DNA of 64,000 nucleotides from Candidatus Peregrinibacteria bacterium CG10_big_fil_rev_8_21_14_0_10_55_24. GTDB lineage: Bacteria; Patescibacteriota; Gracilibacteria; Peribacterales; Peribacteraceae. Where the stretch lies: assembly GCA_002772745.1 (NCBI GenBank), contig PFDV01000003.1, forward strand, positions 62,001-126,000, given 5' to 3'. The position numbers were made by a program, and so were the translations under genes. Numbering within the stretch: the first letter of the stretch is position 1; each line of letters opens with the position of its first letter. The notes beneath the pieces are model-generated. The model worked only from the letters and a program-made list of their open reading frames with translations, ran no database searches and was not told the DNA's origin. Shown here piece by piece: positions 16,541 through 57,845 of the stretch.

Positions 16541-17281
16541 ATGCAGGATTCCTTTTCCGTTGTCCTGTTCGTTCTCGTTGGTGCCCTTCTGGGGAGTTTT
16601 GGGAATGTTCTTACATTGCGTTTGCCGCGCGGGGAATCCATTGGCGGTCGTTCGCATTGTCCGCACTGTTCCCGTGTGCTTCGGGCATGGGAACTCATTC
16701 CAGTGGTCAGTTTTATGTTGCTGCGAGGTCGTTGCTCTACATGCCATGGACGCATTGCATGGCGGTATCCGATGGTTGAGGTAAGTAGTGCCGGGCTTTT
16801 TCTCCTCGCACTCTCCCTGGCGCCGGGGGTGGAGGCGGCTGCGCTGCTCGCACTCTCTCTGTGGCTTCTCCTTCTCATTGCGATTATCGACGCGCAGGTG
16901 CAGGGGATTCCTGATGTCCTCAATTTCACTCTTCTCATTGTGGCGGGTGCCTACGCCTTTGTAGTAGGAACGCCGGAGCTCTTTCCTCCGCTTCTCACAG
17001 GAGGGTTCTTCTTCTTTCAGTGGGCCGTGAGCCGAGGTCGATGGACGGGCAGCGGCGACATCATCCTCGGCACAGGGATCGGCCTCCTTCTCCCCACGGT
17101 CGGGCATGCACTTCTCATGTTGGCATGCTCTTACATCCTCGGTGCCGGTGTGGCAACGGTACTGCTTCTCTCTGGGCGCTCGAAACGAACAGATCACTTG
17201 GCCTTTGCTCCCTTCCTCGCGTTAGGAACACTTCTCACGCTTCTGTGGGGGGATGTAATGCTTGGAGTTCTCTTGGGATAA
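16541..17281 (+). CDS. pilD: Type IV prepilin peptidase/methyltransferase
   Basis: PilD cleaves the leader of type IV prepilins at the cytoplasmic face and methylates the new N-terminus. The 246-residue membrane protein has the N-terminal methylase region with two zinc-binding CxxC pairs (Cys40/43 and Cys65/68). The two catalytic aspartates are Asp117 (AIIDAQVQGIPD) and Asp173 in the GxGD motif (GSGDIILG). It is the expected processing enzyme for the pilin-like proteins in this window. The ATG is preceded by TACCAT exactly six bases upstream, indicating a leaderless message. Confidence 0.92.
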   Translation: MQDSFSVVLFVLVGALLGSFGNVLTLRLPRGESIGGRSHCPHCSRVLRAWELIPVVSFMLLRGRCSTCHGRIAWRYPMVEVSSAGLFLLALSLAPGVEAAALLALSLWLLLLIAIIDAQVQGIPDVLNFTLLIVAGAYAFVVGTPELFPPLLTGGFFFFQWAVSRGRWTGSGDIILGTGIGLLLPTVGHALLMLACSYILGAGVATVLLLSGRSKRTDHLAFAPFLALGTLLTLLWGDVMLGVLLG

Positions 17282-21180: not shown

Positions 21181-23001
21181 ATGCCACTCACCGACGAACA
21201 ATTGGGCCAGATCCTCCTCGAGCAGAGTTACATATCGCCAGAAGAATTACAACGTTCCCAGGAGCAGGCAAAAAAGCTCAAACTCAACCTTAAAAGTCTC
21301 CTCACGGATCAGGGTCTCCTCACGCAGCAACTCTACGAGAATGCGCTTGCAGAGCACTTCCATCTCAAATTTTTCGATACCCAGACTACTCCCCCGTCTC
21401 CCGAAGTCATCATGGCGCTCCCGGAGGAAATTGCCCGGGCGTTCTGTGCGGTTGTCGTGAAGAGAGAAGCGAAGAGCGTGGCCGTTGCAACTGCAGACCC
21501 GGGGAATGAGCTTTTGGAAGAAGCGGTTCGTCTTAATCTTGGCAAGAAAGAAGCAATCATGCCCGAACCGTTGCCAAAAGAAGAGCCTGCTGGCAAAGGC
21601 AAGAAGTCCAAGAAGAAAGCTCCGCAAAAGAAGAGCGGGTTCACTTTTGGCGGGAAGAAGAAGGCGGAACCGGAACGATTCGCTGGGAAGGTGGATCTCT
21701 TCTATGCGCCGCAGTCGGTGATTGATGCCCTGCTTTCGCACTACAAGAAACCGCTTGCCACCCGCTTTCAGCAGATCATCGAAACACAGAAAAAAGTTGC
21801 CCCAGAAATTCTGGAGGAGATTATCAACGATGCCATTCAACTGCGCGCATCCGACATTCACTTTGAACCGCAGGAAAAAATCGTCATCGTGCGTTTCCGT
21901 GTGGACGGAGTCATGCACGAGGCAGGACGCATTCCCAAAGAGCATTACGACGGCGTACTCAATCGCATCAAGATCGACGCCACCATGCGTATAGACGAAC
22001 ACTTCGCTGCGCAGGACGGCGCTATTCGTCATCCGCTTCCAACAGGTAGCGCGCTCGACATCCGCGTTTCCATCGTTCCATTGGTGGACGGAGAGAAAGT
22101 GGTGATGCGCCTGCTTTCCGAGTATGTGCGGCACCTCACGCTCGGTGATCTGGGATTTACCGAAGAGAATCAAGCAATTCTCCGTTCCGCTGCACATAAA
22201 CCGTTCGGCATGATCCTTACCACCGGACCGACGGGGTCAGGAAAATCAACGACACTCTACGCACTGATGAAACTCAGGAATTCTCCCGATGTGAACATTT
22301 CGACCATCGAGGATCCCGTGGAGTACAAGATTGCAGGGATCAACCACATTCAGGTGAATTCCAAGGCCAATCTTACCTTTGCAACGGGCTTACGCTCACT
22401 CGTGCGCCAGGACCCGGACATTATTCTGGTGGGCGAAATCCGCGATGGCGAGACCGCAGATATCTCCGTCAACGCGGCACTCACGGGGCATCTCCTCTTT
22501 TCCACACTCCACGCAAACGATGCCGCAACGGCGATACCGCGTTTACTGGAAATGGGCGTAGAACCATTCCTCCTCGCCTCCACTCTGGAGGTAGTGATGG
22601 GTCAGCGCCTGGTCAGGCGGATCTGCCCCAATTGCCGGACAAGTTACACTGTTTCCGGCGCGGAGAAAAAAACGCTCTTCCCTGGTGCGGAAAAATTCTT
22701 TACGGGGGGCGGACCTGTCACGCTCTATCATGGAAAGGGCTGCGAAACCTGTGGCCAAACCGGATACCGCGGACGCGTGGGTATCTACGAACTGATTCAG
22801 ATGAATGAGGACATCGAAGAACTCATCATTGCGCGTGCAACAAGTACAGAACTCAACCGTCTTGCGTGCAAACAAGGTATGAAATTGATGTTTGAAGACG
22901 GGTTTGAAAAAGTAAAAACAGGAATGACGACCGTGGAAGAACTCCTTCGTGTCGCCGCTCCACCCGATGTTCTCCAGAAGTCCCATGGCAAGAAAGCGTA
23001 A
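21181..23001 (+). CDS. pilB: Type IV pilus assembly ATPase PilB
   Basis: PilB powers pilus extension. The 606-residue protein has an N-terminal MshEN-like domain (LTDEQLGQILLEQSYISPEELQ). A basic Lys-rich linker follows (residues about 125-160), much richer in KK than in model PilB. The GspE ATPase core carries Walker A GPTGSGKST (about residues 348-356), the Asp box and HxxND. A zinc finger has Cys481/484 and Cys521/524, ending QTGYRGRVGIYE. It lies 12 bases after the response regulator and overlaps pilC by 17 bases. No PilT retraction ATPase is in the window. Confidence 0.95.
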   Translation: MPLTDEQLGQILLEQSYISPEELQRSQEQAKKLKLNLKSLLTDQGLLTQQLYENALAEHFHLKFFDTQTTPPSPEVIMALPEEIARAFCAVVVKREAKSVAVATADPGNELLEEAVRLNLGKKEAIMPEPLPKEEPAGKGKKSKKKAPQKKSGFTFGGKKKAEPERFAGKVDLFYAPQSVIDALLSHYKKPLATRFQQIIETQKKVAPEILEEIINDAIQLRASDIHFEPQEKIVIVRFRVDGVMHEAGRIPKEHYDGVLNRIKIDATMRIDEHFAAQDGAIRHPLPTGSALDIRVSIVPLVDGEKVVMRLLSEYVRHLTLGDLGFTEENQAILRSAAHKPFGMILTTGPTGSGKSTTLYALMKLRNSPDVNISTIEDPVEYKIAGINHIQVNSKANLTFATGLRSLVRQDPDIILVGEIRDGETADISVNAALTGHLLFSTLHANDAATAIPRLLEMGVEPFLLASTLEVVMGQRLVRRICPNCRTSYTVSGAEKKTLFPGAEKFFTGGGPVTLYHGKGCETCGQTGYRGRVGIYELIQMNEDIEELIIARATSTELNRLACKQGMKLMFEDGFEKVKTGMTTVEELLRVAAPPDVLQKSHGKKA

Positions 23002-24298
23002 GTCCCCCACAACACCACGGCACCTTCCCGCCTCCGCTGAGCGAGAGCAAAAGGCGCAAGGCCAGAAGAACACGGGAAATCCCTCTGTCGCATCAGTGCA
23101 GCAGCAAGAGGAAACTCCGGAACCAAGAGTGTCTGCGGATACAAAGGCTAAGCGCATGCGTCTCTTTGGTCGTCGTACACAGGAGGATGTTTCCTCACAC
23201 AAAGCAAAGAGCAATGCGATTGCAGTGTTCTTTGCCTCCGTCAACAACATCGGTATGGGCAAGAATGCACACATTTTTGTGCAGAGTGCGGCAACCATGC
23301 TCGAGGCGGGACTTCCTCTCATAGAAACACTCAAGATTTTCCAGATGGAAACACGAGGACGGTCCATGCGTAAGATCATCCAGCAGATGATCGAAGAGGT
23401 TGAGAATGGCACCCCGTTCTGGCAGGCAATGGAGAATCGGCGCCTCTTTTCGCCATACGACATTGCCATGGTGCATATCGGCGAAGAGGCGGGGAATCTC
23501 GCGAGAAACATGACGTACCTCGCCGAACAGAAGGAAAAGGATCGCCAGCTGAAACAGAAGGTGAAGATGGCAATGATTTATCCCACGGTGGTTCTCGTGA
23601 TGATGTTCATCGTCATTATGGGATTGGGTCTCTTCGTACTCCCGAATCTCGTGCAGGTGCTCTTTGCACTCAATGCGGAACTTCCCATTACCACAAAGAT
23701 AGTCATCTGGATTTCTCAAATGTTCAGCCTGCACGGCAAGGTGTTCGTGCCGCTCCTTCTCGTATTCTTTGCGTTGTTCTTCCTTCTTATGAAATTCACG
23801 CCTTTGCGTGTTGTGGGGCAATGGATGGTTTTCCACATCCCAGGTGTGGGGAAATTGGCACGCGAAGCAACCATCGCACGCTTCGGGGTTATCCTCGGTG
23901 GCCTCCTCCAGGCGGGCGTCCCCTTTGTCGTAGCTCTGGAGTCTCTCGTGGAGGTAACGCCGACCGTTGCGTACAAGAAATTCTACGCAAAACTTTTGGA
24001 ACATGTGCGAGTAGGCGACTCTTTCAGCAAGGGTTTCGAGGAACTCAAACAAAGCAGGAAACTCCTTCCGGTCTCTGTCCAGCAATTGGTGGTCACCGGA
24101 GAACGATCCGGTTCCCTGGCGGAAAGCCTCTTAAAAGTGGCTTCCATTTACGAAAAACGAGCATCGGAAACCGCACAAGTCCTCCCTGTGATTCTTGAAC
24201 CTATGCTCCTCCTCATCATCGGAGGACTCGTCGCGTTCATAGCACTTGCTATCATTGTTCCTATCTACAGCGTTGTCGGCAACGTCGGCAATGCATGA
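22985..24298 (+). CDS. pilC: Type IV pilus inner-membrane platform protein PilC
   Basis: PilC anchors the assembly machine and rotates with PilB. The 437-residue protein has the two GspF domains (FVQSAATMLEAGLPLIETL and ARFGVILGGLLQAGVPFVVAL), each ending in GEEAGNL or GERSGSL, with three transmembrane segments. An N-terminal, basic, probably disordered extension of about 70 residues is rich in Lys, Arg and Gln. The ATG at 22985 overlaps the pilB end by 17 bases; an upstream start would overlap more. Confidence 0.93.
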   Translation: MARKRKSPTTPRHLPASAEREQKAQGQKNTGNPSVASVQQQEETPEPRVSADTKAKRMRLFGRRTQEDVSSHKAKSNAIAVFFASVNNIGMGKNAHIFVQSAATMLEAGLPLIETLKIFQMETRGRSMRKIIQQMIEEVENGTPFWQAMENRRLFSPYDIAMVHIGEEAGNLARNMTYLAEQKEKDRQLKQKVKMAMIYPTVVLVMMFIVIMGLGLFVLPNLVQVLFALNAELPITTKIVIWISQMFSLHGKVFVPLLLVFFALFFLLMKFTPLRVVGQWMVFHIPGVGKLAREATIARFGVILGGLLQAGVPFVVALESLVEVTPTVAYKKFYAKLLEHVRVGDSFSKGFEELKQSRKLLPVSVQQLVVTGERSGSLAESLLKVASIYEKRASETAQVLPVILEPMLLLIIGGLVAFIALAIIVPIYSVVGNVGNA

Positions 24299-24337: not shown

Positions 24338-27300
24338 ATGGCACGCAAAGCCTTTACTGCCGTTGAGACCCTACTCGCGCTCGGCATTATTGCCGTGACG
24401 GCAGGTATCACTATTCCTCTGTACAACGACTACCAGATCCGAAACGATCTGGATCTTGCGACAGAGCAGCTCATCCAGGCGTTGCGTGCGGCGCAAATAC
24501 ACTCCCAATCTGGAACGCAGGATGCGCAGTGGGGCGTGTATACCCAAGAAGGAATCCTCTTCAAAGGGGACATGTACGCACTCAGAGATCCGGACGAAGA
24601 TCAGGTATTCCCCATTCCACCGTCTATTAATGTCTCTGGTCTTTCGGAGGTGGTCTACTCAAGGATCGATGGAGTTCCGAGCGAAACGGGGGAAATCATC
24701 CTTGAGGCCATTAATGGCGATAGACGTACCATCGTCATCGGAGACGATGGCCTCCTGCAAACAAGCGGGATTCAATCTCTCCCCGAAGGCTTCTTTGATG
24801 ACGGGGGTGACATGGGTGACGATGACGTCGACGGAGACGGTATCCCCGATGTCCAAGAGGGAGATGAGGATACCGATGGCGACGGCACCCCCGATTACCT
24901 GGATCCCGATAGCGACAATGACGGCATTCCCGATGAAGAAGAGGGCGGTGGTGATACCGATGGCGACGGTATCCCTGACTACCAAGATCCTCAGGAAAAC
25001 CCGACGGAGCCGTGCGAGGAGCGTTTTGTCGTAGATGAGAACGGTGCGATTCAAACCACCGGTTCTGTTGATCTTACGGTGAAGGCGCTGGGATCGGCAA
25101 TTACCTACGGAGAGAACGGGCCGAACATTCCCGTACGTGCCGATATAAGTTTGGATGGAGGAGCAACGTGGTCCGAACTTTTCCTTGGCAGAGATATCGA
25201 TGGCGGCGAAACGGAATTCATCGAAAATTTGCCCTCCGGAACGCAGGTGCTCCTGCGAGTGAACGGGCGACACGGGTGGCTCTTCAACAAGACCTATGCT
25301 TCCAACGATCAGTCCGGCCACATTCAGGTTTTGAGGAATGGTGATACGCCTCCTCAGTACCAGGCATACGGAAACCAGTCTTCCCTTGCGAGTTTTGTCC
25401 GCAACATTCTGGATGAACAAGGGCGCATCAGCATCGGTGCTTACGATGCCGTTTTGCTCGTGGAGCTTGGGACACTGGAAACATCGTCATCCGATTTCCA
25501 GGATGCCGTGATTCTGTTGCAGTTCACACAGAAGCCTCAGAGTTGTGCCCTGGCAACAGACCCGCGCTTTAAGGTACTTTTCGAACGCACAGAGAATGTG
25601 GGCAGTGGGGATGCAGCGCGATCTGTCTATGTGGGCGAATCAGCCATCCACTATGGCGAGGCACAGTGGATACCGCTCCAGGTGGCGGGCGTTGCAGCAA
25701 CCGATTCCGGTCTGGTGGAAAATGTACCCGGCCTTGCCGTGGATCGTCAGAGTGGAGTCGTCAAAGTGCTTCTCCATGGTTCACATGCCGGTCTTTCCAA
25801 GGAGATCGTCGATGCGCGTGTCGTCTTCGACAACGCCGTCATAACAAGTCTCGAGAATGCCACGGGGCAGGATGCCTGCGAATCTCCATTTGATGCAATA
25901 GTGAATGATGGCGCCGGTGGAGACGAAGCTACTCAAATAACGGGAGCTCGCGAAGTGTTATTCCAAACGCGGGTGACAATTGAGGACGACGCACTTCTCA
26001 TCCACTGGGCGCGTTCCGGTGCGAATCAAGATACCGATGGCGATGGAATCACCGATAACGAAGAAGGATATGGTGATACTGATGGCGACGGCCTTGCCGA
26101 TTATCTCGACACCGATAGCGACAATGACAATATCAGCGATAATGACGAAGGGGCTGACGATTCCGACGATGACGGCACTGCCGATTACAAGGATACCGAT
26201 AGTGACGATGACGGAATCCCCGATGGTCAGGATCTTGAGGACGAAACGGATGACCAAGTGCCAACCGAAGAAGAGAGTGATCCATGTGCGGCCGCTTTTT
26301 CCCTCAGCAACGGAAACATTGTTCTGCAAGAACTCGCGGATGTCACATTCAAAGTGCTGGGGTCATCCTCTCATTACGGGCGCCGTGGGCCGGAAATCCA
26401 AGTAAGCCTGCAGGCGAGCGTCAACGGTGGAGCCACCTGGCAATCACTCTTCAACAACCGCGACGTAGATGGCAACGAAACGCAAACACTTGCCGATGTG
26501 CCTTCGGGGAGTGAAATTCACGTCAAGGTAGAGGGGCGCTACGGCTGGCTCTTCCGTCGCCGAGTGCAGTCGGGCGGGGCATCAGAAAACTTGCGGATAC
26601 TGCGGCGTGGTGATCCGGTACCGGCAACAACCCCCTTCTCCAGCCCACTAACGCTCAAGAAATTCCTGCGTGACCAGGTGCGTTCGGGTCATGTTGTTGC
26701 AGACAAGCGCAGTGTGCTTCTCATTGCAGAACTCACAGACGTGGGTGTTGCCGCCGACTATCAGGATGCAGTGGTTCAGATTTATATTGAAAAGCCTCAG
26801 AGCGGAGGCATCTGTGGCGCTACGACTGACGATGGCGACGACGATGCCGGTACCGCTGATGACGGAGATACGGGAGAAACTGTTCCAGAAGAGGAAGTAG
26901 TTCCCACGGGATTGAAAATAACCATTTGTCATTTCCCTCCGGGCAATCGCCAGAATCCTGAAACGATCGAAATCGATGAGGCTGCCTGGCCAGCACATCA
27001 AGCCATTGGCGACCGTCGAGGTGCATGCGAGGATGACCAAGATGGAGATGGCGTTCCCAATGCCGACGACCTCTGTCTCAACACCGCAACGCCGGAATCT
27101 GTACCGGAAGAATTCATGCTCTTCGATCGCTATGCTCTTACGGAGGCAGGCACGATCTTCCGTCATGGTCCTCGCAAGAAGGTTGGTCAATACACTCTGG
27201 CACATACCAAGGGGTGCAGTTGTGAGCAGCTTATTGATGTAGCCGAGGGGATGCGCTTCTACTACTTCGATCAGTTCCCCCGTCTCCAACGGGCAATGCG

Positions 27301-27385
27301 CAACTTGTTCCCCTTCTTCACCATAGGAGCACGAAAATACGGGTGCAGCGAAGCTATTATTCGTATGGTGGAGCGAGAACTCTAA
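24338..27385 (+). CDS. Giant type IV pilin-like adhesin with calcium-binding TSP3 repeats
   Basis: The 1015-residue protein begins with a class III-like prepilin leader and helix (RKAFTAVETLLALGIIAV), with Ala instead of Gly before the cleavage site and the conserved Glu5. A thrombospondin type 3-like repeat block (DxDGDGIPD units) covers about residues 162-217 and a second about 563-634, with a third short unit near 899. Each block is followed by a beta-rich module of about 180 residues; the two modules are homologous (VDLTVKALGSAITYGENGPN versus ADVTFKVLGSSSHYGRRGP). Near the C-terminus is the surface-protein motif ITICHFPPGN with PAHQAIGD. It probably sits at the pilus tip and needs calcium. 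It follows pilC by 39 bases. Confidence 0.85.
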   Translation: MARKAFTAVETLLALGIIAVTAGITIPLYNDYQIRNDLDLATEQLIQALRAAQIHSQSGTQDAQWGVYTQEGILFKGDMYALRDPDEDQVFPIPPSINVSGLSEVVYSRIDGVPSETGEIILEAINGDRRTIVIGDDGLLQTSGIQSLPEGFFDDGGDMGDDDVDGDGIPDVQEGDEDTDGDGTPDYLDPDSDNDGIPDEEEGGGDTDGDGIPDYQDPQENPTEPCEERFVVDENGAIQTTGSVDLTVKALGSAITYGENGPNIPVRADISLDGGATWSELFLGRDIDGGETEFIENLPSGTQVLLRVNGRHGWLFNKTYASNDQSGHIQVLRNGDTPPQYQAYGNQSSLASFVRNILDEQGRISIGAYDAVLLVELGTLETSSSDFQDAVILLQFTQKPQSCALATDPRFKVLFERTENVGSGDAARSVYVGESAIHYGEAQWIPLQVAGVAATDSGLVENVPGLAVDRQSGVVKVLLHGSHAGLSKEIVDARVVFDNAVITSLENATGQDACESPFDAIVNDGAGGDEATQITGAREVLFQTRVTIEDDALLIHWARSGANQDTDGDGITDNEEGYGDTDGDGLADYLDTDSDNDNISDNDEGADDSDDDGTADYKDTDSDDDGIPDGQDLEDETDDQVPTEEESDPCAAAFSLSNGNIVLQELADVTFKVLGSSSHYGRRGPEIQVSLQASVNGGATWQSLFNNRDVDGNETQTLADVPSGSEIHVKVEGRYGWLFRRRVQSGGASENLRILRRGDPVPATTPFSSPLTLKKFLRDQVRSGHVVADKRSVLLIAELTDVGVAADYQDAVVQIYIEKPQSGGICGATTDDGDDDAGTADDGDTGETVPEEEVVPTGLKITICHFPPGNRQNPETIEIDEAAWPAHQAIGDRRGACEDDQDGDGVPNADDLCLNTATPESVPEEFMLFDRYALTEAGTIFRHGPRKKVGQYTLAHTKGCSCEQLIDVAEGMRFYYFDQFPRLQRAMRNLFPFFTIGARKYGCSEAIIRMVEREL

Positions 27386-27396
27386 AGAATACATTT

Positions 27397-27432
27397 AGCC
27401 GAAGGCACCTCCCAAAAGAGGTTCCTTCGGCT
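27397..27432 (+). terminator. Hairpin after the giant pilin gene
   Basis: AGCCGAAGG (27397-27405) pairs with CCTTCGGCT (27424-27432), extended by CACCTC and GAGGTT inside. The T run is only TT, so it is a weak or processing-type terminator. A separate -10-like TATGGC stands six bases before the next ATG. Confidence 0.5.
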
Positions 27433-27480
27433 TGAGCAAAGAATCCTGCTAGGATGGCTGGTGCCGTGTATGGCATAACG

Positions 27481-28926
27481 ATGCGTCATCACTCTTTCCG
27501 ATCGGGATTCCTCCTGCTCGATGCTCTCGTGGGGATTACGGTATTCGCATTCTTTGTCGGGATTGCAGGGTTTTCATTGCTCTTAAGTCAGCAGACAGCG
27601 ATTCGCAGCGGCGATCGCGTGCGCGCTTCCATGCTTTCGGAGCAGGCGATCGAAGCAGTCCGAAGCGTGCGTGATGCCGACTTTGGGAATCTTGCCGAGG
27701 GGCAGTATGGAGTGAGTATCGGTACGGATGGTACGTGGCAATTGACGGGAACGGGCTCGCTTTCTGAAGATGGCTTTGTCACGTCGGTACAACTTCAGGC
27801 GCTGGATGATGACCAATTCGAACTCACCGCCACAACAACCTGGACCTTTGATACCGCTCGGTTTGGCAGCGTCATACTCACGGCCCATCTGGCAAATTGG
27901 CGGAAGGAAAAGGAAATTGGCAACTGGGCGGCTCCTGTGCTTGACGGTGCATTTGTCGATACGAGCAACCCTCTCTTCAATGCGGTGACGATAATGGGAG
28001 AATACGCGTTTGTAACGAGTGAAATTTCCTCGGGCGGTGCGGGTTTGTATGTGCTCGACATTTCAAACCCCGCTCTCCCCATACGTGTGTCCGACGGTTT
28101 TTCCTTAGGAGTTTCCGGATACGAACTGATCGTATCGGGGAACGTACTTTTTGTTCTTACGGGAGACGACGCGAATGAAGTGCGTGCGTACAACATCTCT
28201 GATCCTAATCTCCTTTCCTCCGATCAGCTATTAGGCACGTATAATATTCCTGGCGTTGGCCGAGCGCGCTCACTGGCGCTCTTTGGCACTACGCTGTATG
28301 TGGGTGCGCAGGAAAGCACAACCGGGGCGGAGTTCTACGCGCTCGACGTCTCCGCGCCGGCACAGATCTCTCTCATGGGATTTTTGGATATCGAAGGAGG
28401 AGTACTGGATGTCGCTCTCTACGAAGGATATGCCTACCTCGGCAGTACGCAGGATGTGGGGGAACTGGTCGTTATTGATGTCTTTGATCCGCAGGACATG
28501 GTGGTTATGGAGTGCGGGGGATGCAACCTCACCGATGTTCCCGATGGTCAGGCCGTAGGCGCATTCAATGGCATTGTCCTCCTCGGGCGGTCCATCGGGG
28601 ACTTTATCCAAGAGCTCGTGCTCTTCTCCATTGCCGAAGGCCCTGCTCCGGCGCCGCCTCCGCAGCCTAAGTACTACGGTGTTGATGCCAATGTGAATGG
28701 TCTTGCCTGGGAACCAACGGGAACCTATGCCTTCCTTGCCACGGATGATGGCGATCAGGAACTGCAGGTGATTGATATCAATCGTTTCCAAACCGATCAG
28801 TTTCCACGCGTTGCCTCGGTGGATACCACGACGGGGAATGGTCGTTCGGTCACGTATGATGCGTTCCGGGACAGAGTGTTCCTCACAACGAACGGTGCAG
28901 TACTCCTCTATGCTCCAGGTCCATGA
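27481..28926 (+). CDS. Pilin-like protein fused to a beta-propeller (LVIVD-like repeats)
   Basis: The 481-residue protein starts with a prepilin-like end (RSGFLLLDALVGITVFAFFV), with Gly before Phe and Asp instead of Glu at position 5. After a short pseudopilin region (to about residue 150) it has repeated strands of the LVIVD propeller type: YVLDISNPALPIRV, YALDVSAPAQISLM and VVIDVFDPQDMVVM. Such propellers often mediate binding in surface proteins. I chose the ATG at 27481 over the frame start at 27454 because the prepilin leader begins there. It overlaps the next gene by four bases. Confidence 0.8.
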   Translation: MRHHSFRSGFLLLDALVGITVFAFFVGIAGFSLLLSQQTAIRSGDRVRASMLSEQAIEAVRSVRDADFGNLAEGQYGVSIGTDGTWQLTGTGSLSEDGFVTSVQLQALDDDQFELTATTTWTFDTARFGSVILTAHLANWRKEKEIGNWAAPVLDGAFVDTSNPLFNAVTIMGEYAFVTSEISSGGAGLYVLDISNPALPIRVSDGFSLGVSGYELIVSGNVLFVLTGDDANEVRAYNISDPNLLSSDQLLGTYNIPGVGRARSLALFGTTLYVGAQESTTGAEFYALDVSAPAQISLMGFLDIEGGVLDVALYEGYAYLGSTQDVGELVVIDVFDPQDMVVMECGGCNLTDVPDGQAVGAFNGIVLLGRSIGDFIQELVLFSIAEGPAPAPPPQPKYYGVDANVNGLAWEPTGTYAFLATDDGDQELQVIDINRFQTDQFPRVASVDTTTGNGRSVTYDAFRDRVFLTTNGAVLLYAPGP

Positions 28927-29345
28927 AGCGCACGCAGTTCCGCAACGGCTACACCTTTCTCCTCAGTGTGCTCTTCGTGGGGGCCATCGCCATGACGGTG
29001 ACGGGGACCATGGTCCTCCTGGGATGGCTTACCATGCGCACAAGCGCGACCATAGAAAGCTCCACTCAGGCATTTGAACTGGCAATGACATGTGCAGAAC
29101 GGGGACTCCTCTCGCTCTTCGAAGACGGCGGGTACGGCGGGTACGAAGAGTTTTCCATCGGAGAAGGGGTATGCGATATTCTTCCTGTCGGCGGGGCAGG
29201 GAATGAAAACCGCACTCTTTGCGTGGAAGGAACGAAGGGTGGAGTGACACGGCGTCTCGAAATCGTCGTACAGAGAGTGCTCCCGTCCATCCGCATTCTC
29301 TCCTGGCAGGAAGTCGACATGTTCACCTTCTGTACGTACAACTGA
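28923..29345 (+). CDS. PilX-like minor pilin
   Basis: The 140-residue protein has a prepilin-like start (RNGYTFLLSVLFVGAIAMTV), one hydrophobic helix and then the small soluble domain of a minor pilin (TCAERGLLSLFEDGGYGG, VCDILPVGGAG). The Glu5 of major pilins is replaced by Leu, which is common in PilX/GspK-type proteins. It overlaps its neighbours by 4 bases upstream and 1 base downstream, so the three genes are coupled. Confidence 0.75.
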   Translation: MKRTQFRNGYTFLLSVLFVGAIAMTVTGTMVLLGWLTMRTSATIESSTQAFELAMTCAERGLLSLFEDGGYGGYEEFSIGEGVCDILPVGGAGNENRTLCVEGTKGGVTRRLEIVVQRVLPSIRILSWQEVDMFTFCTYN

Positions 29346-29980
29346 TGCGCAATCTCCTCCTACGCCATCGGCCAGGTGTGACCTTTGTAGAACTTCTGCT
29401 CTTTCTTGGCGTCTTTGCAATGTGCTGTGGCGTACTCATTACCGTTCTGGTGTTTTCTCAGGAGCAACGCGTACGCCAACAAACCATCACTGCTGTGGAG
29501 CAAGAAGGTGTGCAACTGCTCCAGATGCTTGCGCGGCGCGTGCGCAATGCCGAAAATATTCTGGACCCACCAGCAGGATCTTCCGGTTCCCTCATTGCCA
29601 TGCAAATGGGGCATGAAGATCTCAACCCCACCATCCTTGCGCAAGGAAGCGGCACAGTTGTAGTTGTTGAGGGAGATACACTACGGTCCATTAGCCCTTC
29701 AGGTCTCCAAATTATAGATCTGCGATTTGCAAATACCTCTGTAGATGCAGAGCGGCAGAGCGCACGCATCTCCTTCGTTGCCCAGCGCACCATACCGCTC
29801 CCCGGGTTCCCTCTCTACCGGCAGCCATTTGCTCTTTCCATTGCGCTCTTTCCGGATAACGATTGGTCAGGTGATGATTGTGCCTGTGTAACGCCCCAAT
29901 GCATTGGAGGAGTGTATCAATGGCAAGTTTGCATCCTTGAAGCCTGTCAGGATGCAACAACGACACTTGTGTGCGAATAA
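29345..29980 (+). CDS. GspJ/PilW-like minor pilin
   Basis: The 211-residue protein has the leader RPGVTFVELLLFLGVFAM with Gly at -1 and Glu5, a hydrophobic helix, and a soluble domain with four cysteines at the C-terminus (CACVTPQCIGG, ACQDATTTLVC). Size and end resemble GspJ/PilW-type minor pilins. It is the last gene of the four-gene tip block. The ATG shares one base with the TGA of the preceding gene. Confidence 0.75.
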   Translation: MRNLLLRHRPGVTFVELLLFLGVFAMCCGVLITVLVFSQEQRVRQQTITAVEQEGVQLLQMLARRVRNAENILDPPAGSSGSLIAMQMGHEDLNPTILAQGSGTVVVVEGDTLRSISPSGLQIIDLRFANTSVDAERQSARISFVAQRTIPLPGFPLYRQPFALSIALFPDNDWSGDDCACVTPQCIGGVYQWQVCILEACQDATTTLVCE

Positions 29981-30156: not shown

Positions 30157-30621
30157 ATGAAAAAAGGTTTTACGCTCATTGAGCTTCTGCTCGTCATCGG
30201 AATTATCGCCATTCTTGCCTCCATCGTGATCGTGGCGATCAACCCGACCAAACAGCTGGGAGACGCCCGCGACGCGCAACGCCGCAGTGACGTCAACACC
30301 GTTCTCAATGCGGTGTACCAGTATGCGATTGATCACAACGGTAACCTCCCCTCGTGTATCGACACGGAGGAAAAGGGCGTATGTACCTCCGGTTCCGACT
30401 GTGCGGCATATGCCGCTGGTGATAGCGGTGGACCTGCAACGGGATGCAATCTCGACGTACTGACAGGTTCCTACCTCGTCAGCATTCCGGTAGACCCCCA
30501 GGGCACACCCGGTACGTCCGTGGAGTACACGGGGTACAACATTGCACGCACTGCTGCAGGCCGCGTGACTGTCACGGCGCCTGAAGCCGAACAAACTGCT
30601 ACGATTAGTGTCACACGCTAA
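30157..30621 (+). CDS. Type IV pilin (major pilin copy 1)
   Basis: The 154-residue protein has the canonical prepilin start MKKGFTLIELLLVIGIIAIL, cleaved between Gly and Phe by PilD, with Glu5. The conserved helix is followed by DARDAQRRSDVNTVLN and a soluble domain with paired cysteines (CIDTEEKGVC, DCAAYAAG and GCNLDVL). The family's C-terminal VSIPVDPQ and YNIARTAAG motifs are present. It is very similar at the DNA level to the next gene over the first 170 or so bases. Confidence 0.9.
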   Translation: MKKGFTLIELLLVIGIIAILASIVIVAINPTKQLGDARDAQRRSDVNTVLNAVYQYAIDHNGNLPSCIDTEEKGVCTSGSDCAAYAAGDSGGPATGCNLDVLTGSYLVSIPVDPQGTPGTSVEYTGYNIARTAAGRVTVTAPEAEQTATISVTR

Positions 30622-30655: not shown

Positions 30656-31096
30656 ATGAAAAAAGGTTTTACACTCATCGAGCTTCTGCTCGTCATCGGA
30701 ATTATCGCCATTCTTGCCTCCATCGTGATCGTGGCGATCAACCCGACCAAACAGCTGGGAGACGCCCGCGACGCGCAACGCCGCAGTGACGTCAACACCA
30801 TTCTCAACGCGGTGTACCAGTACTCCATTGATTTCGATGGAACACTACCCGGAGATATTCCTACAGGTACCGCAAAGCCGATTTGTCTCGGCACGGTCAC
30901 CGGTACGGATTGCACCACGACAGCTGTAGGCGTGGATCTCTCTGCTCTTCTCGGAGACTACGTTGTGAGTATTCCGGCCGATCCGCAGAACACGAGTGCG
31001 ACGGTCACGGGGTACACCATCGTGAAGGATGCCAACGGGCGCATTACGGTTGAGGCAACACCGGAACAGGCAGCCGACATCTCCGTTACCCGCTAA
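30656..31096 (+). CDS. Type IV pilin (major pilin copy 2)
   Basis: The 146-residue protein shares the leader, helix and DARDAQRRSDVNT region of copy 1 and then differs: SIDFDGTLPGDIPTGTAKPI, with fewer cysteines. The first 170 or so bases differ from copy 1 at only a few positions, while the soluble domains are much more divergent. This points to a recent duplication or gene conversion of the 5' part. The ATG at 30656 fits the leader; upstream in-frame codons are not pilin-like. A strong terminator follows at 31120-31144. Confidence 0.9.
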   Translation: MKKGFTLIELLLVIGIIAILASIVIVAINPTKQLGDARDAQRRSDVNTILNAVYQYSIDFDGTLPGDIPTGTAKPICLGTVTGTDCTTTAVGVDLSALLGDYVVSIPADPQNTSATVTGYTIVKDANGRITVEATPEQAADISVTR

Positions 31097-31195: not shown

Positions 31196-33445
31196 ATGCC
31201 GGCGCAATTGCACCACCCCACTCCGCAGGTTTCTGTGCGCAGGTCCATCCTGACCAAGGCAGTCTGGCAACAGGTCATTTTTGCAACGTGCATTGTGTGC
31301 ACACTCTCTGTCATAGCGTTCCTAATTGCGCGTGCGGCTTTGGAGCAACGGGTGCTTGCTCAACTTTCTTCGATTGTTGCAGCGAAGGAAGACCTCATTG
31401 AGCAAGTATTCCGTGATGATCGCGAGCGGACTGCTCTCCTTGCTTCTCGTAGTGAGATGCAGCAAGTCCTTCTGGGGATTTCTTCTCAGGCAACGCTCCA
31501 GCATGTCCTTGTTCAGTTACATGAGGAGAACATTCCTGCGGAGGGTATAGCGGTTTGGAACCGTGCGGGTGTGCTTGCGGCTTCCGTGGGAGATCCCGGA
31601 GAAGTTCCGACGGTATTTGTACCGCGATCTACCGTCATTCCACAATTCACCTTGCGCGGATGGAACGGATACCTCGTGCTTTCTCCTATCCGATCTTCTG
31701 CCGGAGAATGGGTGGGGACTATCGGTGTTCGTTACGATGAGTCGCCTCTTCTCGCCGCACTGCGCTCGGTGTCTTCTTTAGGGGAAACAGGAGAAGTACT
31801 TTTGGGGAGAGAAGAAGACCACGTACTCGCTCTCTTCGTGCACCGGTCGCCGCTCGGGACAGTGTCGCCGCTCTTGGTTGGTACTGTCGAGGAACAGTAC
31901 GCATTTGGATCTCCTATTGCGCAGGCGCTCCACGGGGAGGAGGGCTTACGCAGGGCGGAGGATTATCAGGGGCACGACGTGTACGTGGCGTATCGATCAC
32001 TTTCCTCGGTCCCCTGGGGCTTGGCGGTCAAAGTGGATCGTGCCGAGGCCCTGCAGGGAACAGCGACGCTTGCATCATTCTTGGCCGCTGCAGGGGTATT
32101 TCTTGCGCTTGCCGCTTCAGTTATCGCTTACATCTTAGCGCAGAGGCTCACAGCTCCAGTTATTCATGTAAGCAAAAAAGTTTCGCAGCTGCGTCCAGGC
32201 CATTGGGGATTCCGCTCCACGGTGCGTACGGGCGACGAAGTGGAAGTGCTCGACCGGACAGCAGCGGATCTTGCCAGCCGGCTCAAGCGTACTTACGAGC
32301 ATCTGGAGGATGAGGTGGCGGCACGTACCGAAGAACTCCGGGAACAGTACGCAAAGGATCGAGCGATCTTGGACAGCGTCGAGCACGGGATTATCGCAGT
32401 GGATCGTCGTGGGTGTATCACAGACATCAATGAAGCTGCCATGCGTATGCTCAGTGATACACAGGAACACCTACGTGGCGCGCAAAACACGGACGTCTTG
32501 CAATTTCTGGGGAAGAAGAACAAAAAGAAGTATCAGGTGCATCCTATCCGTCAGGCGCTTCGCGCACGCAGGGCGTACCGGGCGGATACGCGCGATCATC
32601 TGAGTATTGTACGCAATGATGGGACACTTCTGCCCATCAACATCGTGATTACCCCCCTTATCTCTGGGCGAAAGCTCTGGGGTGCGGTTGCGGTATTCCA
32701 AGATATGACAGAAGAGCGTCGCATCGACTACATAAAGTCAGAGTTCATCTCTCTGGCCTCACATCAGTTGCGTACGCCACTCTCCTCGTTGCAGTGGTAC
32801 TTGGAGCTTCTTACCAGTGAGAAGCACATCAATCTCACTTCGATTCAAAAGGAATCCTTGAGCGAAATGCAACGAGCAGTACAACGCATGGCGAACCTGG
32901 TGGAGACTCTCCTTCATGCGTCACGGTTAGAAGGCGGGGATATCACGCCGAAGATTCAACGTGTCAATGTTACGCAGTTCCTGCGCGATCTTGCCGAAGA
33001 ACTGCAATCCTTGGCGAAGGAGAGAAAACTCTCTTTCAGTGGAGAAATGCCTTCGCAGTCTCTTGCGCTCGACACGGATCCCATCCTGCTCCATGTGGTA
33101 TTCCAGAACATCTTCAGTAATGTGCTGAAGTATTCCAAGGAGGGTGGGAACGTTAATCTGCGGTGTTCTGTAAACAAACAAATGATCACCATCACAGTAC
33201 AAGATACGGGAATCGGGATTCCTAAAGAGGATCAGCCGCGTATTTTTGAGAGACTCTTCCGCGCCCGGAATGCCACAAAGGTTGATACCGATGGGAGCGG
33301 TTTGGGGCTCTACATATCCAGGATGATTCTGGAAACGCTTGGAGGAAAAATTTCCTTCGAGAGTGAGGAGGGCAGGGGTGCTCAATTCACCGTGGTCCTA
33401 CCGCGCCGTCCTCGTGGTACGCCCAAGAGCCCAAGGGGCTCTTGA
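31196..33445 (+). CDS. Membrane sensor histidine kinase (extracytoplasmic sensor, HAMP, PAS)
   Basis: The 749-residue protein has an N-terminal transmembrane helix and an extracellular sensor of about 240 residues (dCACHE-like). After a second transmembrane helix (AAAGVFLALAASVIAYILA) comes a HAMP linker and coiled coil, and a PAS domain (DRAILDSVEHGIIAVDRRGCITDINEAA). The kinase core has an H box ASHQLRTPLSS with the phosphorylated His near residue 523. N, G1 and G2 boxes follow (FSNVLKYSKEGG, DTGIGIPKED, GSGLGLYI). No response regulator is adjacent; the single-domain regulator at 20770-21168 is a candidate partner. A hairpin overlaps the stop codon. Confidence 0.9.
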   Translation: MPAQLHHPTPQVSVRRSILTKAVWQQVIFATCIVCTLSVIAFLIARAALEQRVLAQLSSIVAAKEDLIEQVFRDDRERTALLASRSEMQQVLLGISSQATLQHVLVQLHEENIPAEGIAVWNRAGVLAASVGDPGEVPTVFVPRSTVIPQFTLRGWNGYLVLSPIRSSAGEWVGTIGVRYDESPLLAALRSVSSLGETGEVLLGREEDHVLALFVHRSPLGTVSPLLVGTVEEQYAFGSPIAQALHGEEGLRRAEDYQGHDVYVAYRSLSSVPWGLAVKVDRAEALQGTATLASFLAAAGVFLALAASVIAYILAQRLTAPVIHVSKKVSQLRPGHWGFRSTVRTGDEVEVLDRTAADLASRLKRTYEHLEDEVAARTEELREQYAKDRAILDSVEHGIIAVDRRGCITDINEAAMRMLSDTQEHLRGAQNTDVLQFLGKKNKKKYQVHPIRQALRARRAYRADTRDHLSIVRNDGTLLPINIVITPLISGRKLWGAVAVFQDMTEERRIDYIKSEFISLASHQLRTPLSSLQWYLELLTSEKHINLTSIQKESLSEMQRAVQRMANLVETLLHASRLEGGDITPKIQRVNVTQFLRDLAEELQSLAKERKLSFSGEMPSQSLALDTDPILLHVVFQNIFSNVLKYSKEGGNVNLRCSVNKQMITITVQDTGIGIPKEDQPRIFERLFRARNATKVDTDGSGLGLYISRMILETLGGKISFESEEGRGAQFTVVLPRRPRGTPKSPRGS
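33425..33445. terminator. Hairpin shared by the ends of the kinase gene and rnpB
   Basis: CAAGAGCCC and GGGCTCTTG form a 9-bp hairpin around AAG, ending at the kinase stop codon. The convergent rnpB RNA ends four bases away. No T tract follows on either strand, so it may act as an RNA end-protecting stem rather than as a classical terminator. Confidence 0.45.
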
Positions 33446-52462: not shown

Positions 52463-54880
52463 TCACGGCAGCGTCTTGATCTGCGTGAGGGGGTAGTAGT
52501 AGCGCAGGATCTCCTCGCCCGTGCGTCCTTCCTCCGCCTGTGCCTCCGCGCCGCAGCCGGACATCCCCACGCCGTGTCCGTTCATGGGGAAGCTCTTGCA
52601 CCAGGGGTCTTCCTTGCTCTGGAACACCTCGGAAAAGGGGAAATGCTTCCACCCCACTTCCTCGGGGGAACGCGTGCGACCGTCATCCGAAGAAAAGTAC
52701 GGGGTCTTTACCACTTGGCCGTCCTTGGTGATCACCTGGAGCGTGGTGCTCTCTACCGCGGCGATCCACCGGGGATTGCGCTGCGCGAAATTGGCTCCTC
52801 GGTACGCCTGAAAACGGGCAGGGGAATCATCGCCATCGTAGGGCATGCCCGGGAATTTGCGATGGAGCGGATCCATGTAGTACGCGGCGTAGCTGCGCGC
52901 GGCGATGGCGAACGCACGCTGTTTTTCGTAAGGCTCCGTGTCGGGTTCTTCCGCGAGTCCTTCCATGTACTTTTCCAGAGGAACTTCGTTGATGAGGACA
53001 AGTTCCCTGTTGAGCACACGGCACTCCAGTATCCCGTGGAACGCGTTGTCCGTCGCACGCAGGCTGGTGAGGGCGAACAGCCCGCTCTGAGGCTCAATGC
53101 GCACCACGCCCGAAGAGAGACGCAACATACCTACGCGGTACGCGCAGCTCTCGCCCTCTCGCTCCAGGAACACCGAAGTCTCCGGATACATGCGGCCGTT
53201 CACGGTGACGTAGCGGCCCGTGGTCACGGTGGCGGTGTCCCCTTGGTGAGAAGAGAGACGGATACGGATGGAACGTTCCGGATTCACATTGAGTGGGGTG
53301 GTGAGTTCCTCCAATACTTCGCTGGGGCGCTGCGGCTGCGCGGGACTCTCGGTGGTAACCGAAGGAGAAGAGTCTCCCGTAAGGGAGCGAAGCCGTCGTC
53401 CTTCACCGCGCAACGTAAAGACGATGTTGCCGATGCGTACGGTGTACGTGTTTGACTGCGGGGGGAGGAGGGCACGGATGCGGATGATCTGTGTCTCACC
53501 ACTCTTGAGTGTGTTGGGCGACAGGAGCTCTTTGCGCACGCGTACTTCCCGCCCGCCAAGTTCCTGCCATAAGCCGACGCGATCATTGGATCGCACGACT
53601 TCCGCCAAGCGCGCACGCTTGGGGACAGCGGCATCCCCGGCGCGATAACGCACCAAGAAGGTCACCTGCCCGCCGGGGAGCGTGGTGTACTCAGTTTCAC
53701 CAACGGCTTCCAGGAGCGGTTCAGTTGTCCGGGTCTCGCGCGCGAGCCGCTCTGTGCGGCGCTCAACGCTTCGATCTTGGTACTCCTTGCGTTCGGGCGG
53801 GATAATGGCGGAGCCCAAGCGACCCGCCAGAATGTGTGACCGCAGTTGCGCCATAACCTCATCCACGTAGTACCCAGGGCAGAGCGTGCTGCCGACATCT
53901 TGGTGACCGACAATCGCGGGCAACGACTCGCCGTGGAAGACCACGCGCTCATTCAGGTTCATGTTGTTCTCCTGCGCAAGGTAACTCAAAAGCCACTTCA
54001 GACTGCGCCACTGTGCTTGCGTGGGCTTCTCGATCTCAAAGTTCCCCATCAGCGCAACCCCCACAGTGCCGACGTTCGCGCAATATGCATGACCGCCCAC
54101 GACGCGGTCATCCTCTCCTTCGCGTCCCTGGTAGATCGCGCCCTTCTCGTCGACGACGTAGTGGTAACCGATGTCTCCCCACCCCAGCGTTCCTGCATGG
54201 TACTGGTAGAGCGCCCGCATGCGCTCCACACCGTTACGCTCGTCTCCGGCCACGGTGAGAGCGGTATGGTGCACGATGAAGAGGCGCACCTTTTGGGCGT
54301 AACTCTGCGGCCAACGCAATTCCTTACCATCGGTATCGGTAGTCACGGTGCGTGCGACTTTGAATTCGTCGGGATACGTGCGCTGTGTCTGGATGCAATC
54401 TGCTACGCGCCGGGAAACATCACCGGTCTCCCCTACGCCGATGGCATCGGGGTCGCTCGCCGGTTCCTCGCCAATGAGAATCTCCTCATCTGCGCCCCAC
54501 TGTTCCCGTGAGAGGATGCGCGGCTTGGTTATGGGGGTCACAGCGGCAACGGTGTAGTGTGCCGGCTCATCGGAAATCGTGAGAGGATGGAGCACATAAG
54601 GAGAACGACTCTCAATACGTACGCGCTCCACTGCGGACCCAAAGACCAGGAGTCCTGTCTCACGCGATCCGGGAGCGGCATCTGCTTCCGTGGCAAGCGT
54701 ATGCCACGAAGTCCAACCAGAAGCGATGCGCCCCTGCACTGCAGCAGATGCCTCCTGCGTAATGAGACCGAGGCTCAACGCATCAACGGGTTCAGGAAAA
54801 TGATGGGTGCGTATGGAGAGCTCTCCCCCAGAGAGAAGGAGAACAGCGCAGAGCACTGTAGCGAGGGTCAGGCGCCGCAT
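52463..54880 (-). CDS. Exported PGRP-type amidase fused to a SpoIID-like domain
   Basis: The 805-residue protein starts with a signal peptide (LTLATVLCAVLLLSGG). An amidase_2/PGRP domain follows, with ILSREQWGADEEILIGE, FIVHHTALTVAGDE (first metal His) and YHYVVDEKGAIYQGREG; HQDVGSTLCPG supplies the other metal ligands. The middle is beta-rich and lacks clear identity. The C-terminal SpoIID domain has LINEVPLEKYMEGLAEEP, QRAFAIAARSYAAYYM and GHGVGMSGCGA. Together it could cleave peptide stems and strip glycan strands in the cell wall. TATACT is eight bases before the ATG at 54880. Confidence 0.88.
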   Translation of the reverse strand: MRRLTLATVLCAVLLLSGGELSIRTHHFPEPVDALSLGLITQEASAAVQGRIASGWTSWHTLATEADAAPGSRETGLLVFGSAVERVRIESRSPYVLHPLTISDEPAHYTVAAVTPITKPRILSREQWGADEEILIGEEPASDPDAIGVGETGDVSRRVADCIQTQRTYPDEFKVARTVTTDTDGKELRWPQSYAQKVRLFIVHHTALTVAGDERNGVERMRALYQYHAGTLGWGDIGYHYVVDEKGAIYQGREGEDDRVVGGHAYCANVGTVGVALMGNFEIEKPTQAQWRSLKWLLSYLAQENNMNLNERVVFHGESLPAIVGHQDVGSTLCPGYYVDEVMAQLRSHILAGRLGSAIIPPERKEYQDRSVERRTERLARETRTTEPLLEAVGETEYTTLPGGQVTFLVRYRAGDAAVPKRARLAEVVRSNDRVGLWQELGGREVRVRKELLSPNTLKSGETQIIRIRALLPPQSNTYTVRIGNIVFTLRGEGRRLRSLTGDSSPSVTTESPAQPQRPSEVLEELTTPLNVNPERSIRIRLSSHQGDTATVTTGRYVTVNGRMYPETSVFLEREGESCAYRVGMLRLSSGVVRIEPQSGLFALTSLRATDNAFHGILECRVLNRELVLINEVPLEKYMEGLAEEPDTEPYEKQRAFAIAARSYAAYYMDPLHRKFPGMPYDGDDSPARFQAYRGANFAQRNPRWIAAVESTTLQVITKDGQVVKTPYFSSDDGRTRSPEEVGWKHFPFSEVFQSKEDPWCKSFPMNGHGVGMSGCGAEAQAEEGRTGEEILRYYYPLTQIKTLP

Positions 54881-54899
54881 GTGGGGGCAGTATAGCGGC

Positions 54900-56018
54900 T
54901 TAGGATTTGTTATGCGATGAGAGAAGTTTTTCGTATGTATCAACCATACGCTCTGCGGTAAAGAGATTCTGAGCCGTCCTGCGGCCGAGCTCTCCCATTC
55001 CCTTTAGTTTCTTCGGGAAGGAAAGACACTTGAGAATCTCCTTCTCGATTGCACGGCTCTCTCCGGCAGGAACGACGATGCCGTCCATGCCGCTCGTCAG
55101 GTACTCGGCAATGCCACAGACATTGGTAACGAGCACAGGAACACCCCGGAGCATCGCTTCGGCAACGACCAGCCCAAAGGGATCATGCTCACGGGAGGGG
55201 AGCACAAAAAGATCAATGTCTGCGTAGAAACCAGAGAGGTCCTCCACCCATTCCTTGCGCACCACACGACTCCCCAGGGGCGAGAGCATCCGATCGATAC
55301 GCTTGCTCCCCCGCCCTTTGCCCACAATTGTCAGATGCGCATGAGGAACATGCTCTACAGCCTCAACGAGGAGGTCGACACCCTTGTCGGGCGTCAGCCG
55401 CGCAACGCATCCGATGCGCAGGGTTTCCGAGTGTTTCTTCTGTGGAGTGGGAGAGGGGGCCGGAACCCCGTTGGGGATGGTAACCACCTTCAAAGGGTCC
55501 CAACCAAGATCTACATACATCTTCTTACTCAAGCCCGAGACGACGACTGTCGTCGCATGGTTGCTCAAACGTCGCAGCGCAGGAAGCCAGGGGTTCTGTG
55601 TGAGCCATCGGCCCACGCGGTCATGCTCCATCCAGAAAACAGGGATAGGGCGTGTATATACATTGTATATACATTCACCAGTAAGCAGCGGCGTGAGGAG
55701 AAGTTTTTCCGAAAGGCTCAGCATGAAAACAGCATCAATGTCACGGAATTCTCTAAAGAGCGCCTCAAGCGCTCTGCGCATACGCGCACGTCGCCAGAGA
55801 AAACTCACGGCACCCCACTTTGTGACGGGAGGGGGGCCGATTTCAAGCTCTGCGCAAGGAATGCCGCGCTCCTTACATTCTTTAAGAAGAACAGGGCAGC
55901 TCCCAAGGAACGCTACGGCATGACCGTGTGCGAGGAATCCCTCCATGAGCGTAAGAGTCTGCGATTCTGCGCCGCCCGGGGCGCTCTCCAACGGAAACCG
56001 GGTAAAGAGAATTTTCAC
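54900..56018 (-). CDS. GT4-family glycosyltransferase
   Basis: The 372-residue protein has GT-B features. The N-terminal Rossmann half contains GGAESQTLTLMEGFLAHGH. The C-terminal half has IGCVARLTPDKGVDLLVEAV and the nucleotide-sugar motif PSREHDPFGLVVAEAML (E-x7-E). It probably extends surface glycans. GTG start with TACAAT six bases upstream. The gene contains the second copy of the 24-base palindrome (55650-55673). Confidence 0.85.
   Translation of the reverse strand: MKILFTRFPLESAPGGAESQTLTLMEGFLAHGHAVAFLGSCPVLLKECKERGIPCAELEIGPPPVTKWGAVSFLWRRARMRRALEALFREFRDIDAVFMLSLSEKLLLTPLLTGECIYNVYTRPIPVFWMEHDRVGRWLTQNPWLPALRRLSNHATTVVVSGLSKKMYVDLGWDPLKVVTIPNGVPAPSPTPQKKHSETLRIGCVARLTPDKGVDLLVEAVEHVPHAHLTIVGKGRGSKRIDRMLSPLGSRVVRKEWVEDLSGFYADIDLFVLPSREHDPFGLVVAEAMLRGVPVLVTNVCGIAEYLTSGMDGIVVPAGESRAIEKEILKCLSFPKKLKGMGELGRRTAQNLFTAERMVDTYEKLLSSHNKS
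55650..55673. repeat. Second copy of the 24-base palindromic repeat
   Basis: It is identical over 24 bases to the reverse complement of 19120-19143 (core TGTATATAC, ATT, GTATATACA). Here it lies within the glycosyltransferase gene and encodes part of GECIYNVYTRPI. Confidence 0.7.
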
Positions 56019-57413: not shown

Positions 57414-57845
57414 CTATCGTGAAATGCGAATCGTTTCTCCGCGCTCCGCTCCCAAGGAGTCAACCGTAATACGTCCGTTCTCTTCCTGTACGATAGTGTA
57501 CAGGGTTCCTGTCCCCGTTGCTTTGGGGTCGCTGGGGATGTCCACGGCGTAGAGGCCGATGAGTATGTCCAAATCCACACCGTTCACACAACTCGGTGCA
57601 TTTTTAATGCAGATTTCCTTGGGGGTGAGCGCAGGGATATCCGCAGGGTAGAGGTTATGGTCCACGGCGTACTGGTGCACGGTATTGAGGACTGTCTGCA
57701 CGTCCATACGGCGCTGTGCATTGCGCGTATCGGCCAGTTGCTTGCTGGGATTGATCGCCGTCGTGATGCGCATCACCAGGATCGAGATGATGGCGATCAC
57801 CAGAAGGAGTTCGATGAGCGTAAAGCCGGCGCGCTTTTTCCGCAT
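57414..57845 (-). CDS. Type IV pilin (divergent third copy)
   Basis: The 143-residue protein has the leader KKRAGFTLIELLLVIAIISI, Glu5, and the same family layout as the pilins at 30157-31096 (NPSKQLADTRNAQRRMDVQT). The hydrophobic helix carries an unusual VMRITTAIN segment with Arg inside it. The ending (ETIRISR) echoes the ISVTR end of the other pilins. TAGTAT six bases before the ATG. It heads a unit with the CPBP protease. Confidence 0.88.
   Translation of the reverse strand: MRKKRAGFTLIELLLVIAIISILVMRITTAINPSKQLADTRNAQRRMDVQTVLNTVHQYAVDHNLYPADIPALTPKEICIKNAPSCVNGVDLDILIGLYAVDIPSDPKATGTGTLYTIVQEENGRITVDSLGAERGETIRISR

Follow-up and report, generated by a model that had tools for sequence, protein, structure and literature searches.

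What do minor pilins with large grafted domains do at the end of a type IV pilus in an uncultured member of the Patescibacteria? How these bacteria find and hold a partner is largely open, and the locus described here supplies concrete candidate tip proteins. It lies in a 64,000-nucleotide stretch of Candidatus Peregrinibacteria bacterium CG10_big_fil_rev_8_21_14_0_10_55_24 (contig PFDV01000003.1, positions 62,001 to 126,000; hereafter the window), from a genome of 1.29 Mb in 13 contigs that is 98.8% complete and belongs to Candidatus Peribacteraceae (Patescibacteria). Four prepilin-like proteins, H, I, K and J, are encoded at 24338 to 29980, between pilB-pilC and the major pilins. We consider it probable that they form a tip (priming) complex of the H/I/J/K type on a retractable, type IVa-like pilus, with the grafted modules taking the place of PilY1 as the presumed adhesin. 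Four pilins, including one of 1015 residues, had been proposed here in an earlier reading of the DNA (the original prediction), and the positions of the open reading frames and their prepilin-like N-termini agree with it:

24338 to 27385, + strand: H, modular minor pilin in the FimU/GspH position (1015 amino acids (aa); leader MARKA/FTAVE; Glu5 present)
27454 to 28926, + strand: I, minor pilin in the PilV/GspI position, fused to an LVIVD propeller (490 aa; Asp at +5)
28923 to 29345, + strand: K, minor pilin in the PilX/GspK position (140 aa; without Glu5, Leu at +5)
29345 to 29980, + strand: J, minor pilin in the PilW/GspJ position (211 aa; Glu5; Cys-rich C-terminus)

Class III type IV prepilin-like N-termini are present in all four proteins and in their orthologues, and conservation indicates that all four open reading frames are real. 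K and J, the two minor pilins expected after the propeller pilin, have the leaders MKRTQFRNG/YTFLL and ...RHRPG/VTFVE, respectively. For I, the ATG at 27481 yields a better leader (MRHHSFRSG/FLLLD); J starts at the ATG at 29345, and the TTG at 29219 is unnecessary. H falls short of the cut-off in its N_methyl Pfam score, and its assignment as a pilin thus combines the motif, the orthologues and matches in the PDB, where its profile finds type IV pilins through the N-terminus. The residue at position 5 follows a set pattern: Glu in H and J, Asp or Glu in I, and no Glu in any of the 20 aligned K sequences. Glu5 is likewise missing from PilX/GspK, the tip-most minor pilins (PMC7541494).

Is the set kept together? 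Among 115 relatives searched, H had a match in 62 and I in 63. The order H-I-K-J, the conservation of which had been named in advance as a test, is intact in 30 of 40 fetched loci, with I-K-J in 2 more and several of the remainder interrupted by contig ends. The usual frame is pilB-pilC-H-I-K-J-pilA-kinase. This conservation of order speaks in favour of a real complex. All four genes had also been taken to be coupled, which holds for part of the set: I and K overlap by 4 nucleotides (nt) in the window and K and J by 1 nt, but between H and I lies a 68-nt spacer that folds into a strong hairpin (−27.5 kcal/mol, z=−5):

27397 to 27432, + strand: RNA hairpin between H and I (36 nt; no U-run)

The 4-nt overlap of I and K recurs in most loci, as does an overlap of K and J (1 to 43 nt as called, lengths that partly reflect uncertain starts). 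By z values taken from mononucleotide shuffles, and hence generous, spacers folding at z≤−3 were found between H and I in 11 of 16 measurable relatives, between J and A in 2 of 23, and between A and the kinase gene in 12 of 25. The H-I hairpin was not scored as a terminator, and the H-I spacer folds of relatives are unrelated in sequence. The hairpin may plausibly separate H from I-K-J, either by leaky termination or by mRNA processing.

Which parts of these pilins could reach another cell? We take I first. The predicted fusion of a pilin to an LVIVD-type propeller is borne out by the Pfam match (PF08309, 45.9 bits against a cut-off of 20.2), with LVIVD matched in 25 of 27 relatives of I, and by the structure model (mean predicted local distance difference test (pLDDT) score 85.6, mostly above 80). 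The model comprises a pilin helix of 59 residues (17 to 75) and a small pilin sheet, followed between residues 157 and 490 by about 27 further strands that form a propeller of about 7 blades, for which Foldseek returned WD40-type propellers at a probability of 1.00 (E down to 3e-12). The repeat family is that of LVIVD-repeat surface proteins (PF08309), but in I it is attached to a pilin. Two LVIVD proteins of Magasanikbacteria (L121, L124) were rejected as relatives of I, having ordinary signal peptides and not being pilins. These are exported proteins of about 1560 aa with an LVIVD-like stretch, and their genes lie close to a gene for a pilB-like ATPase.

H is built of more parts:

24338 to 24757, + strand: pilin part (residues 1 to 140; 41-65% identity in most relatives)
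24785 to 24991, + strand: TSP3 linker 1 (residues 150 to 218; 4 DxDxDG motifs; pLDDT <50)
25007 to 25537, + strand: module A (residues 224 to 400; beta-sandwich; Asp-box-like S-x-D-G-G-x-T-W motif; weak reelin likeness)
25541 to 26023, + strand: module X, or domX (residues 402 to 562; beta-sandwich)
26030 to 26257, + strand: TSP3 linker 2 (residues 565 to 640; 4 DxDxDG motifs; not conserved)
26279 to 26842, + strand: module A2 (residues 648 to 835; homologous to module A)
26906 to 27031, + strand: CHxPPGN...GD motif (residues 857 to 898; in shorter relatives it directly follows the pilin part)
27026 to 27382, + strand: C-terminal domain (residues 897 to 1015; starts with a conserved TSP3-like unit, D900 to C913; conserved cysteines)

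The two homologous modules noticed in H from the outset are A and A2 (224-400 and 648-835), which are 36% identical (E=2e-37). In the structure model of H (mean pLDDT 65), a helix spans residues 3 to 57 and A, X and A2 are confident beta-sandwiches; confidence is very low in the linkers and in most of the C-terminal domain. Neither A nor X has a Pfam family above the cut-off. A reelin subrepeat-B match at residues 663 to 705 of A2 is below the cut-off (E=0.012), and the Foldseek matches to reelin are weak. No structural kin of H could be accepted from Foldseek against PDB and viral structures, which returned weak beta-sandwich, C2 and reelin matches. PDB sequence relatives of A and X were likewise set aside as chance-level matches, with sialidases brought in through the Asp-box motif. 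From sequence, the conserved payload of H is two weakly reelin-like beta-sandwich modules, domX and the C-terminal domain, none of them recognised by Pfam.

Does the proposed calcium-binding rod belong to this payload? H contains nine D-x-[DN]-x-[DN]-G-x-x-[DN] motifs, four at 163-214, four at 565-629 and one at 900, so that both proposed TSP3 blocks are present, but it is the single terminal unit that is kept: every aligned H has D900, D902, D904, D911 and C913, and Pfam TSP_3 (PF02412) matched H only here (residues 896 to 919; 21.2 bits, cut-off 25). The linkers were compared in 18 aligned long H proteins, with L056 judged from BLAST. Linker 1 bears TSP3 motifs in the window (4), in L054 (8) and L055 (5), in no other aligned sequence, and in L056. 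Linker 2 bears them in the window (4), L061 (2) and L068 (1). In the remaining long H proteins, Ser/Gly/Thr/Asp-rich spacers of similar length sit where the TSP3 linkers are. A PilB tree places the four TSP3 carriers together with L058, which is without TSP3, in a supported clade of five (95/98). With TSP3 blocks confined to this five-genome clade and low-complexity linkers elsewhere, we rejected the calcium rod as a conserved functional core, and the ligand binding that the original prediction ascribed to a calcium-stabilised rod is not supported in that form: judged from these alignments, the rod is a local spacer variant, not a conserved ligand binder.

The modules themselves move between pilins. 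Shorter forms of H have one A module (for example, L074, L075 and L078) or none (L083, L091, L092 and L093). Five genomes encode, at a distance from the locus, orphan proteins of about 300 aa made of a pilin part and X (L149 to L153), and further pilin-X proteins are encoded directly upstream of H in two genomes (L061:5754-6656 and L066:11174-12049). In other genera, long grafts of up to 1221 aa are borne by K (L075, L076, L081 and L082) or by J (L081), the grafted K and J pilins including those at L081:11029-14694, L081:15354-17126, L075:9522-11051 and L082:5928-7253; the graft on the L082 K pilin is module A. In evenly drawn samples of 380 genomes from the phylum, module A was found only in this family, and so was the C-terminal domain of H, save two weak partial matches. 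Module X is also present in four genomes outside this family, on Patescibacteria surface proteins whose starts resemble signal peptides or whose ends resemble anchors, some of them large (L142:2042-6166, L143:2606-4879 and L144:146-2824). This traffic fits the account of Raynaud and colleagues, in which adhesive pilins arise by cut-and-paste (PMC8179133). A, X and the C-terminal domain may be receptor-binding families that are shuffled among H, K and J as host-specificity cassettes, with the linkers swapped separately, an idea that we advance tentatively; if it is true, the composition of the tip predicts the range of partners.

Which machine would this tip serve? The pilus locus lies on the + strand in the order PilD, PilB, PilC, H, I, K, J, two major-pilin-like genes and a Cache/PAS kinase:

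16541 to 17281, + strand: PilD prepilin peptidase
21181 to 23001, + strand: PilB extension ATPase (best score against the type IV pilus model)
22949 to 24298, + strand: PilC platform protein
30157 to 30621, + strand: major-pilin-like A1
30656 to 31096, + strand: major-pilin-like A2
31196 to 33445, + strand: Cache/PAS sensor histidine kinase (conserved downstream neighbour)

The PilT retraction ATPase is encoded outside the window, on contig C4, with a score above the curated cut-off. No secretin was matched in the genome by a search that was positive in control genomes, as expected without an outer membrane; no secretin gate would then limit the size of the tip. A Pfam scan found no PF05567 PilY1 domain in H or I. 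A genome-wide PilY1 search also returned no match, but its control was silent too and absence from the genome is not to be concluded. A PF11104 match (C8:268117) was rejected as PilM, its score being below the cut-off and its open reading frame reading as FtsA.

Put together, H, I, K and J would assemble as a minor-pilin tip (priming) complex, with K, lacking Glu5, at or near the very tip in the manner of PilX/GspK. H would display the A-X-A2 sandwich modules and its C-terminal domain there through a linker that is flexible or binds calcium, I would display its propeller, and these modules would do the job of the separate PilY1 protein of diderm bacteria. On contact of the H and I modules with another cell, PilT-driven retraction would draw the cells together. 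We infer each of these steps, namely assembly, tip location, ligand binding, adhesion and host attachment. Several points weigh against them. The assignment of the four proteins to the H, I, J and K families rests on gene order and the Glu5 pattern, the profile matches being weak; for K, the match to the GspK profile has E=0.047 and ComGE is another weak match. The modules of H lack a recognised ligand-binding site, and the structures that match them (PDB and viral Foldseek) do so weakly. The genome encodes ComEC, which makes DNA uptake possible, and the host of Peribacteria is not identified in PMC4736985 or PMC9040852, in which their episymbiosis is inferred from genomes. Strain variation in large exported proteins has been reported for Peribacteria (PMC4736985).

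ComEC also bears on the idea that the pilus primed by this complex is of the competence type or serves general twitching, the modules serving to bind DNA or surfaces and not to recognise a host cell. Minor pilins are generally required for assembly (PMC7541494), and relatives with a short H retain the locus, which suggests a role for the pilin parts of their own. Priming, however, does not need large, lineage-variable modules, and the acidity of H (191 D+E against 69 K+R) is unsuited to DNA binding, although surface binding is unaffected by this argument; we judge this reading unlikely. H and I might instead be minor pilins distributed along the shaft that decorate the filament without a single tip complex. 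The hairpin-bearing spacer that splits H from I-K-J, in the window and in many relatives, would allow a different level of H expression; yet models of the Streptococcus sanguinis filament have room for bulky grafts at the tip alone (PMC9934059), and H-I-K-J is maintained as a unit, which makes decoration of the shaft improbable.

A type II secretion-like pseudopilus, with the modules as substrate-gathering or plug parts of its tip, draws on the homology of PilB, PilC and the pilins to GspE/F/G and on the annotation of type II secretion beside type IV pili in the Peribacteria genome paper (PMC4736985). The undetected secretin, the presence of PilT and the best match of PilB to the type IV pilus model all go against it, and we consider it very improbable.

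How much of the adhesive tip complex is new? Modular pilins are a known, widespread class (PMC8179133, PMC9934059), and H and I each have what defines it, a pilin N-terminus joined to a graft that is not pilus-specific. The closest functional parallel is in the same phylum, where PilX2 of type IV pilus 2 in the Saccharibacteria member Nanosynbacter lyticus TM7x is a minor pilin that bears a seven-bladed propeller at its C-terminus and is required for full host binding: when it was deleted, binding fell from about 10.6% to 4.6% of host cells (PMC12206443). We regard this effect, a functional one, as the strongest outside support for the tip-adhesin model. The systems differ in that PilX2 carries RCC1 repeats on a PilX, whereas the window has LVIVD on a pilin in the I/PilV position with a prepilin-like N-terminus, and no counterpart of the A-X-A2 pilin is described in TM7x (PMC12206443). 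In S. sanguinis, a monoderm without PilY1, the two modular pilins of the PilA/PilB/PilC set have been proposed to be filament-capping adhesins (PMC9934059, PMC8179133); their grafts are vWA and lectin domains and the minor pilins number three, against four here. The FimU-PilV-PilW-PilX-PilY1 set of Myxococcus has four minor pilins with a PilX/GspK lacking Glu5, like the window set, but its propeller is on the separate large PilY1 and not fused to a pilin (PMC7541494). The adhesin complex proposed earlier thus stands as a Patescibacteria tip set of conserved order with grafted, probably adhesive domains, but 'new kind' was too strong: modular pilin adhesins are already known, as is a propeller pilin in Patescibacteria implicated in host binding.

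Open-access papers yielded nothing relevant on LVIVD with pili or on TSP3 repeats with the Candidate Phyla Radiation. IPR013211 is presumably the LVIVD entry; if so, the 2021 survey may already include an LVIVD graft, in a modular pilin of Candidatus Falkowbacteria. That pilin, with 12 copies of the IPR013211 repeat, is a single survey protein for which no operon context is given (PMC8179133). In the open-access literature, no description appears to exist of the four-gene tip set with two modular pilins, of its conservation in Peribacteraceae, or of modules A, X and the C-terminal domain. The candidate tip proteins are tied to one conserved operon whose grafted domains move between pilins. The three domains are new targets for binding assays, and host range could be tested by setting the make-up of the tip against the organisms that occur alongside.

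Several further observations concern the pilus genes and their surroundings. The Cache/PAS sensor histidine kinase gene lies directly 3′ of the major pilins in most relatives and is a candidate pilus-linked regulator. Besides PilB and PilT, the genome encodes a third, short GspE/PilB-like ATPase (L159, C8:371504-372532). A contig titled Kiritimatiellales bacterium (L097) bears a clear Peribacteria-type pilus locus, and its label is probably wrong. Away from the pilus locus, the minus strand of the window encodes an extra prepilin with a strong N_methyl motif (57414 to 57845) and, at 52463 to 54943, an 826-aa protein with amidase_2 and SpoIID domains, a combination that may act on peptidoglycan.

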